The notes under the pieces: model-generated
Database searches by the model: none
What the model was told of the DNA's origin: nothing
Seen by the model: only the letters and a program-made list of their open reading frames with translations
DNA from: Clostridiaceae bacterium
Lineage (GTDB): Bacteria > Bacillota > Clostridia > CAYPLH01 > DUMO01
Direction: 5' to 3'
Length of the DNA: 64,000 nt
NCBI GenBank assembly: GCA_012839865.1
Contig: DUMO01000019.1
Span: 1-64,000, forward strand
Shown: positions 8,280 through 32,303 of the stretch, in pieces
How the letters are laid out: every line of letters begins with the position of its first letter
Position numbering within the stretch: position 1 is the stretch's first letter
Made by a program: the position numbers and the translations under genes

Positions 8280-8303
8280 ATTTTTTAATATGAATAATGT
8301 GAA

Positions 8304-8397
8304 AACACCGGGGAGTTGGGAAAACCGGCTGAGAGGAAGCTGATATTGCTTCGACCCGTTGAACCTGATCTGGGTAATTCCAGCGGAGGTAGTATAG
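8304..8397 (+). promoter_or_regulatory. TPP riboswitch (THI element)
   Basis: Contains the conserved thi-box blocks: GGCTGAGAG (8327-8335), ACCCGTTGAACCTGATCTGG (8354-8373) and GTAATTCCAGCGGAGG (8374-8389). These form the pyrimidine-sensor and pyrophosphate-sensor arms that bind thiamine pyrophosphate. An intrinsic terminator follows 20 bp later and thiT is the next gene, so high TPP should stop transcription of the thiamine importer component. Confidence 0.96.
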
Positions 8398-8416
8398 TTT
8401 TTCTATAGGTTTATTT

Positions 8417-30997: not shown

Positions 30998-31582
30998 TTA
31001 GGTTTCAATAACCAAATCGCTTTTTTCCATAATCCTAAACTCTTTAAAATACCTGTTTTCCATGGGTATCCATTCGTTGATGAATCTTTCAAACAGTATC
31101 GGACCATTTCTTTTTAGAATGCGTTCCCTTTGCTTTACTTCATCTGCATGCATGAATATCCTGAAATCATAAATGTCGGTAAAGTATGGGTGCATGCTGT
31201 AGCTGCCTTCAATGACATTCAATTTCCTGGGACTTACAAGTATGCAATCCCCCAATTCCTTTTTGCTGCAATCATACCTGCGGTAACTAAATGCATGACC
31301 CCTTTTCAAATTTTCAATTACTTCCTTCCCAAACCTGACATAATCCACATTTCCGCCCACCTCAGAAAGGCGTTCCGGTGTTCGAAGATCCGGTGTAAGG
31401 AAGAAATCATCCATATGAAAAAGGTTTAAATCAAAAACTTTTGCAAGTTCACCGGCCAGTGTGCTTTTACCGGCACCGCTGTTGCCTTCTATGGCAACGA
31501 TAACCTTTTCTTTGGCTTCCAGCAAGGAATTAATCCGGTTTACCAGGTCATGCTTTATCAATAAATCGCCCATGCTATTCAT
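30998..31582 (-). CDS. Uridine-kinase-like P-loop kinase
   Basis: A 194-aa P-loop kinase: Walker A IEGNSGAGKST, acidic HMDDFF motif (Mg/substrate site of the uridine kinase/phosphoribulokinase group), VIEGSYSMHPYF, and a lid region QRERILKRNGPILFERF. It overlaps the end of the ECF S-component gene by 8 nt, which suggests that it phosphorylates the imported molecule to trap it. The substrate could be a nucleoside or vitamin; sequence does not decide. Start at 31582; an ATG at 31573 is possible. Confidence 0.85.
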   Translation of the reverse strand: MNSMGDLLIKHDLVNRINSLLEAKEKVIVAIEGNSGAGKSTLAGELAKVFDLNLFHMDDFFLTPDLRTPERLSEVGGNVDYVRFGKEVIENLKRGHAFSYRRYDCSKKELGDCILVSPRKLNVIEGSYSMHPYFTDIYDFRIFMHADEVKQRERILKRNGPILFERFINEWIPMENRYFKEFRIMEKSDLVIET

Positions 31583-32108
31583 TCAATAACAGCCCTGCCC
31601 TCTTTATTGCTGCAACAATAACCGGAATTAGTACAATCTGAAGCACAATACCCGGTATTGCATTAAGAAATGCACCTGCTGCAAAAACACTCCATGTAAA
31701 AGGAATATTGCCAAGCCTGTAAACGAATATGCCCGCAATACCCCAGACTGCTCTGCCGCAAACCATTGCAATAATCAGGGCTGCATATATGAATACGTTT
31801 TTTTTGGGCATCAGTTTATATAATAATCCCGAAATACTGCCATATGTAGCCAGTTCAAAGGCCATGGCCAAAGCAAAGGGAATCATGGGCGGCATTCCAA
31901 ACACGACGCTTCTCAGTAAGGGTGTTATAAAACCTACAATAAGCCCGTATGGCCACCCAAGCAAAAAGCCGCACAACAGAACCGGTATATGCATGGGAAG
32001 CAACGCATTCCCCAGGCTCTGAATCTGTCCTGTCAGGAACGGCAGCACCAGCCCCAGAGCTATAAATATACCTGATAATACCAACTTTTTTGTTGACTGA
32101 TTTTTCAT
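31575..32108 (-). CDS. ECF transporter S-component, substrate unknown
   Basis: A 177-aa protein with about six membrane helices, of the ECF S-component type (KKLVLSGIFIALGLVLPF, LLPMHIPVLLCGFLLGWPYGLIVGFITPLLRS in blocks, FALAMAFELATYG). The ATG at 32108 has GGAGGGG 4 nt upstream; the open frame to 32348 is leader RNA, not coding. It lies behind a leader with its own promoter and terminator and is coupled to a kinase gene. It would use the shared EcfAA'T module, absent here. Confidence 0.9.
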   Translation of the reverse strand: MKNQSTKKLVLSGIFIALGLVLPFLTGQIQSLGNALLPMHIPVLLCGFLLGWPYGLIVGFITPLLRSVVFGMPPMIPFALAMAFELATYGSISGLLYKLMPKKNVFIYAALIIAMVCGRAVWGIAGIFVYRLGNIPFTWSVFAAGAFLNAIPGIVLQIVLIPVIVAAIKRAGLLLNE

Positions 32109-32268
32109 ATTACCCCTCCAAAAAAAATACCACGAAAAATAATGCCTTTCTTCAAAAAGGACACATACCTTCGTGGTATATTTGCAATTTCTTTTACTCT
32201 TTAACAAACTAACCTGCCGGTAATTCAAACCGGTATAATGCCGGCTTCTGCCGGCTGTTTTCCCGATA
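32109..32268 (-). promoter_or_regulatory. Terminator-containing 5' leader, candidate riboswitch of unknown ligand
   Basis: About 160 nt of leader lie between a sigma-A promoter and the ECF gene. Near its 5' end are a GCCGGCAGAAGCCGGC hairpin and an ACCGG...CCGG pairing. It ends in an intrinsic terminator just before the ribosome site. ATACCACGAAGGTAT offers a competing small hairpin with the terminator's 5' arm. No standard riboswitch consensus (TPP, cobalamin, FMN, SAM, purine, preQ1, folate) was recognised. Confidence 0.55.
32120..32179 (-). terminator. Attenuator terminator in ECF leader
   Basis: On the minus strand ATACCACGAA (32179-32170) pairs with TTCGTGGTAT (32136-32127), with an inner CCTTTTT/AAAGG stem, then TTTTTTTT. 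It lies 11-20 bp before the start codon of the ECF gene, so readthrough must be regulated. Confidence 0.88.
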
Positions 32269-32273
32269 AACCG

Positions 32274-32303
32274 ATTATAGCACAAATCTCCTGACTGATA
32301 CAA
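32274..32303 (-). promoter_or_regulatory. Promoter of ECF-kinase unit
   Basis: On the minus strand TTGTAT, an 18-bp spacer, and TGC-TATAAT, an extended -10 with perfect hexamer. Confidence 0.68.

Follow-up and report, generated by a model that had tools for sequence, protein, structure and literature searches.

The Operon and Its Leader

The window (the whole stretch of DNA analyzed here, 64,000 nucleotides from a Clostridiaceae bacterium) carries on its reverse strand a two-gene operon behind a leader of about 160 nt. A predicted S component of an ECF-type transporter (start codon at 32108) is followed by a nucleoside-type kinase, and the two open reading frames overlap by a few bases. The features are listed below in transcriptional order.

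32274-32282 (-): extended -10 promoter, TGCTATAAT, from sequence
32239-32256 (-): P1 hairpin, GCCGGC-AGAA-GCCGGC; C-NGAA-G loop conserved and stem covarying across relatives
32217-32233 (-): small hairpin in the linker, CCGG..CCGG; present in the window, with no counterpart recognized in relatives
32164-32180 (-): P2, putative antiterminator hairpin, TATACC-ACGAA-GGTATG; 26/26 aligned copies share the core CCANGAAGG unchanged
about 32120-32179 (-): intrinsic terminator and U-tract; 5' arm 32170-32179, 3' arm 32127-32136; excludes P2
32113-32119 (-): ribosome binding site, GGAGGGG, from sequence
31575-32108 (-): ECF-type S component; Pfam PF12822, E = 1.3e-18, 68 bits vs. a cut-off of 30.7
30998-31582 (-): P-loop nucleoside-type kinase, uridine kinase/nicotinamide riboside kinase superfamily; Pfam PF00485, E = 5e-6

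An earlier sequence-only reading had described a 160-nt leader with an extended -10 promoter, at least two hairpins, and a terminator ahead of the ribosome binding site. All of these were located, and folding of the leader beats 200 of 200 dinucleotide shuffles (z = -4.0). Our promoter/terminator scan missed the leader terminator, the outer stem of which encloses another hairpin. The same reading recognized no known consensus, and Rfam agrees: the window leader matched no family at the gathering threshold and gave only chance matches at a permissive one. The sole Rfam match in the window is a TPP riboswitch at 8299-8408 (+), with 70.6 bits.

No specific S-component model matched the window protein at its cut-off, vitamin-specific families included (FolT-family TIGR04518, 29 bits vs. 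60), and a search for a close relative of solved structure found none. The kinase scored 28 bits with the Udk model TIGR00235 (NCBIfam cut-off 220). Its profile matched solved uridine kinases and nicotinamide riboside kinase 1 (E = 3.5e-9), and the predicted model of a fused homologue (pLDDT 95.6) belongs to the uridine kinase fold superfamily. A kinase relative is present in 50 of 80 loci with S relatives (weakest E 6e-27), and in a dozen of these 50 it is fused to an extra N-terminal domain. That domain is about 170 aa long and mostly helical, with no Pfam match (L002, L011, L013, L016, L018, L019, L021, L023, L033, L060, L063, and L067). In three loci (L129, L206, and L298) a class I methyltransferase replaces the kinase after the S component.

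Another neighbor of S is DUF3842 (PF12953), found convergent or upstream in 17 of 80 loci (for example L285:2250-2666(-), L006:1335-1739(-), and L076) and, in L285, also downstream of the leader element. We do not propose it as a sensor; its conserved Cys/His metal ligands amount to a single Cys (15/16).

Distribution of the Leader Element

In 19 of 80 S loci, inspection of the 500 nt upstream of S showed TAYCANGAAGGTA, or a sequence close to it, with a T-run after it; no recognized element was seen in those 500 nt in the other 61. A pattern search of the class gave matches in 62 of 391 genomes, and among 51 matches inspected, 38 preceded S and 3 some other relevant gene; the remaining 10 were apparently due to chance. 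Covariance model R1 matched 55 of the 391 class genomes (E of 0.01 or less), and its counterpart R2 matched 58 of 398 phylum genomes (E of 0.005 or less), some of them with up to ten copies; R2 scores the window element at E = 5.5e-9. A family-level search of genomes returned the window's own genome only.

The final set comprises 138 elements, including 37 without an assigned gene, some of which are reverse-strand readings of palindromic terminators or chance matches. Three covariance-model matches that look like chance (L189, L195, and L197) were not counted as part of the regulon, and a weak match at an F420-ligase-like gene (L187) was likewise kept out.

Conservation of P1, P2, and the Terminator

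The sequence-only reading had made its case depend on conservation of the leader in orthologues, and the element is indeed kept there, with stems that covary. P1 and P2 carry one common apical motif, C-(A)NGAA-G. In P2, CC-ANGAA-GG is invariant across the 26 aligned copies, and the outer pairs covary (UA 17/AU 6 and AU 16/GU 5/GC 2), with a score of 0.255, not far above the 0.211 of the slid control at +2.

For P1, we searched the 160 nt upstream of P2 for hairpins of at least 5 pairs with loops of the form N(N)xyz, taking all 64 triplets xyz in turn. A GAA-loop hairpin was found in 34 of 52 S-linked copies, vs. at most 3 of 52 for any of the 63 other triplets. The test was replicated on copies before other assigned genes, which, all but the first few, had not contributed to the P1 hypothesis; here GAA was found in 29 of 57 and the best other triplet in 6 of 57. 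Loops among the 34 are AGAA (20), TGAA (7), CGAA (2), and ANGAA (5), closed by a C-G pair in 28, and in the remaining 18 of the 52 S-linked copies no upstream 5-pair hairpin with an NGAA loop was found. In an alignment of 29 P1 hairpins, 98.3% of cells are paired, a figure that is partly so by construction because these were selected as hairpins, whereas the loop test is unbiased. All six pairs vary on both sides, and covariation is 1.003 vs. at most 0.223 in slid alignments. The spacing between P1 and P2 ranges from 12 to 143 nt across copies.

The terminator takes the 5' half of P2 in 32 copies and the 3' half in 18 (50 of 55 together); the other five, which include the window's own, were incompletely covered in this overlap test. 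In 35 of 35 copies the single variable base of the P2 loop pairs and covaries with the 3' arm of the terminator (UA 17, CG 14, UG 3, and GC 1). Because P2 overlaps one terminator arm, the two structures are mutually exclusive, and because either half can be the one shared, P2 would serve as antiterminator in both layouts.

Genes Downstream of the Element

The genes behind the element are summarized here for all searches. In L191 it precedes larE-larB-larC, all three above NCBI cut-offs; in L134 it accompanies LarC (PF01969, E = 3e-140) and a divergently oriented FecCD importer, and in L133 a FecCD importer stands alone behind it. CbiM/NikM follows in six loci (L188, L190, L196, L198, L199, and L200), in most of them with PDGLE partners. 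Nik-type permeases score above the NCBI nickel cut-off in L239 and L256, and NikA-like binding proteins with permeases, below NCBI cut-offs, occur in L193 and L194. In L241 the gene after TrmO encodes a protein that, among solved structures, matches CooC best (3kje, E = 2.8e-14), and this pair recurs in L238, L240, and L257.

Besides the window, the phylum search with R2 yielded 29 loci, and 22 of these carry S (9), CbiM (4), Nik-type ABC genes (5), or the TrmO-CooC pair (4). The rest consist of FmdE plus FecCD (L249), Opp/Nik-type ATPases (L242 and L243), and four loci with no family or with a methyltransferase judged by eye only (L259, L245, L253, and L235).

Since NikM/CbiM, Nik-type importers, TrmO-CooC, larE-larB-larC, and S all share the element, we regard it as the marker of a nickel/nickel-pincer-nucleotide (NPN) regulon, with nickel as the probable signal. 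Genes that are not specific to nickel also stand behind it (CobN chelatase, a ZnuA-type importer, TrmO, and radical SAM), so that a signal from cobalt or a wider range of metals is possible. The sequence-only reading had expected a riboswitch for the transported compound, and here the data point elsewhere: as the same element precedes nickel importers, CooC, and larEBC, nickel or nickel-cofactor status is a likelier signal than a private ligand of the transporter. An early idea of our own, that NPN is the only ligand, was weakened by CooC and by the many nickel importers behind the element.

TrmO (L241:523-945(+), TIGR00104 above cut-off) recurs as first gene in L238, L240, L257, L279, and L296, and in such loci CooC or a binding protein comes next. 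The CobN/magnesium-chelatase-like gene (L273:2-2956(-), PF02514) lies behind two copies of the element.

How the Leader May Work

We think it fairly probable that the leader belongs to an undescribed class of RNA and acts as a transcription attenuator responding to nickel/NPN supply, placed ahead of an operon for import and re-phosphorylation of the NPN nucleoside. An antiterminator factor, most likely an RNA-binding protein active in nickel-poor cells, would hold P1 and P2 as ANTAR does, and RNA polymerase would then read through; with P1 and P2 unheld, the terminator would form. The S component and kinase would import and re-phosphorylate the NPN nucleoside or a nickel-free precursor. In genomes most of which have no LarB or LarC, the salvaged NPN would go to LarA-type racemases and probably also to DUF362 proteins.

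A dual-hairpin antiterminator bound by a protein would account for the leader anatomy no less well than a ligand-binding RNA. Weighing the two, we favor an as yet undescribed RNA-binding antiterminator acting in nickel-poor cells, to which we would give about even chances, although our search found no regulator protein for the element, which counts against this explanation. Its main competitor, a serious contender with chances clearly short of even, is direct sensing by the RNA, as a protein-free two-hairpin riboswitch that binds Ni2+ (or Ni/Co) or NPN through its paired NGAA loops. Several features would suit a riboswitch: both hairpins have conserved loops and covarying stems, the expression platform is coupled to a terminator, and the element is spread widely through the phylum. 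The genes can be read either way, larEBC and S-kinase suiting NPN, and NikM and CooC suiting nickel. Against it, the conserved sequence consists only of a loop of 4–5 nt and its closing pairs, the P1-P2 spacing varies widely, and P1 is not found in about a third of copies, features from which a nickel-selective pocket would be hard to build; CooC under the element also speaks against NPN as sole ligand.

The boldest form of this idea, which we hold to be rather unlikely, is that the two-hairpin RNA is a nickel/NPN sensor in many Bacillota, governing nickel import, NPN synthesis, CooC, and an NPN salvage that feeds LarA and DUF362. Were both the RNA sensor and the salvage real, an organometallic cofactor would circulate between bacteria much like a vitamin.

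A search of open-licence papers found no RNA regulator of nickel import described for these bacteria, and looking up terms in PMC11109978 and PMC8632094 turned up no element of this kind. The element thus offers a testable RNA regulator of nickel import, together with a covariance model.

A Possible Make-or-Import Pattern: Lar Proteins Across Genomes

To place S relative to NPN synthesis, we used 80 genomes hand-picked from the class sample: 29 with S and the element, 25 with S and no element, 24 without S, and two (G162 and G225) with the element and no S, which were set apart from the counts that follow. LarA is present in 33 of 54 genomes with S vs. 5 of 24 without, and DUF362 in 48 of 54 vs. 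15 of 24. The biosynthetic proteins show the reverse: LarB in 10 of 54 vs. 17 of 24 (p = 1.6e-5) and LarC in 14 of 54 vs. 17 of 24. Among genomes with LarA, LarB occurs in 6 of 33 with S vs. 5 of 5 without, and among those with LarA or DUF362, in 10 of 50 vs. 15 of 17 (p = 9e-7); S or LarB is found in 65 of these 67 users. The difference persists when kinship is reduced to one genome per family (LarB 6/27 vs. 15/21, p = 0.001), and five families (f15, f16, f26, f35, and f40) have members with S that lack LarB and members without S that have it. Two counts go against salvage: four genomes with S have neither LarA nor DUF362, and S and LarB occur together in 10 of 54.

The genome of the window encodes three LarA and two DUF362 proteins; LarC was not found in it, and for LarB there was only a match below cut-off, with stops. 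Residues R75, H108, H174, K184, and H200, the NPN-binding or catalytic residues of LarA according to the part of PMC11770544 available, are invariant in 7 of 7 aligned LarA sequences, three of them from the window's genome (G000). In L137 (genome G052), LarA lies immediately 3' of S.

The overall pattern is one of make or import, as expected of an NPN salvage system. On our best reading, an NPN nucleoside would be the compound salvaged by the S component together with the uridine-kinase-like enzyme. As NPN is a ribonucleotide of the pyridinium type, its riboside is a plausible substrate for such a kinase. Import followed by trapping through a nucleoside-type kinase, as the sequence-only reading had supposed, thereby gains support. 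Pairs of an ECF S component and a salvage kinase, encoded by adjacent genes, exist for vitamins. The present pair resembles them in its adjacent genes and in import followed by trapping through phosphorylation, and differs in its proposed substrate, an organometallic nucleoside. It is linked to the lar system (LarA, LarB, LarE, and LarC) by LarA in the same genomes and by the shared leader element before larEBC in L191; here, in contrast, a transporter-kinase pair seems to replace NPN biosynthesis.

It is possible, if on balance doubtful, that S and the kinase instead import and trap another nucleoside, a vitamin, or a nickel chelate, and that the correlations with LarA, DUF362, and LarB/C are a by-product of lineage. 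In favor of this alternative, the closest relatives of the kinase are uridine kinases, S has no close relative of solved structure, and four S-bearing genomes have neither LarA nor DUF362. What argues against it is that the exclusivity of S and LarB persists within the five families named above, that S has LarA as neighbor in L137 and DUF362 nearby in 17 of 80 loci, and that the S operon and larEBC have the element in common. NPN salvage would also be a candidate answer to the question of where genomes with LarA and without LarB or LarC obtain NPN; no description of NPN import was found in the accessible text of PMC7583248, PMC11796402, and PMC12611868.

DUF362 as a Possible Second NPN Family

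DUF362, encoded near S in 17 of 80 loci, follows NPN supply in its occurrence. DUF362 and LarA belong to the same Pfam clan, as stated in the available part of PMC11770544. A profile search by sequence gave no solved relative for DUF362. For its predicted model (pLDDT 79), all 18 of 18 PDB matches below E = 1e-3 are of the LarA family, with modest TM-scores of about 0.4, and hhalign places its H, K, and H on LarA H174, K184, and H200 (E = 0.009, at a probability of only 4.5%). DUF362 is thus predicted to have a LarA-like fold, and it is a likely second family of NPN enzymes. Genomes with larB/E/C and without larA probably hold another NPN protein, a question raised for cyanobacteria in the portion of PMC11796402 at hand; in Synechococcus elongatus, we matched LarB, LarC, and DUF362, and LarA was not matched. 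We propose DUF362 as the missing NPN-dependent protein where NPN is made without LarA.

Comparison With Known RNA Regulators

The closest layout is that of ANTAR sites of the EutV type, with two hairpins, one common loop motif, and a second hairpin that excludes the terminator. According to the sections of PMC8934654 available, P1 is free and P2 embedded in the terminator there too, as in the 50 of 55 copies here in which the second hairpin overlaps the terminator. That the element is a canonical ANTAR dual-hexaloop site is nevertheless very improbable: the same source defines the hexaloop by A at position 1 and G at position 4, whereas the loops here are AGAA, TGAA, CGAA, or ANGAA in P1 and ANGAA in P2, closed by C-G. 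In ANTAR sites antitermination is lost once the linker is 20 nt longer (PMC8934654), whereas the linker here varies from 12 to 143 nt, ahead of nickel/NPN genes.

The NiCo (czcD) riboswitch is likewise an RNA element linked to nickel. It turns on exporters at high Ni/Co (PMC7266159, in the part available), unlike the present element, which precedes importers and cofactor genes, and none of 20 element loci matched Rfam 15, NiCo included.

In guanidine-II (mini-ykkC) riboswitches, too, one small loop recurs on both of two short hairpins, there with the sequence ACGR. The element differs in its NGAA loops, its genes, and the lack of an Rfam match.

Finally, an ordinary terminator accompanied by chance hairpins and without regulation, which the many S homologues lacking the element might suggest, is scarcely credible given the invariant CCANGAAGG core with covariation, both GAA loop tests (34/52 and 29/57), and recurrence ahead of genes of a single functional class (55/391 class and 58/398 phylum genomes). 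The element occurs in at least two copies, tandem or close together, in L268, L273, L278, L285, and L286.
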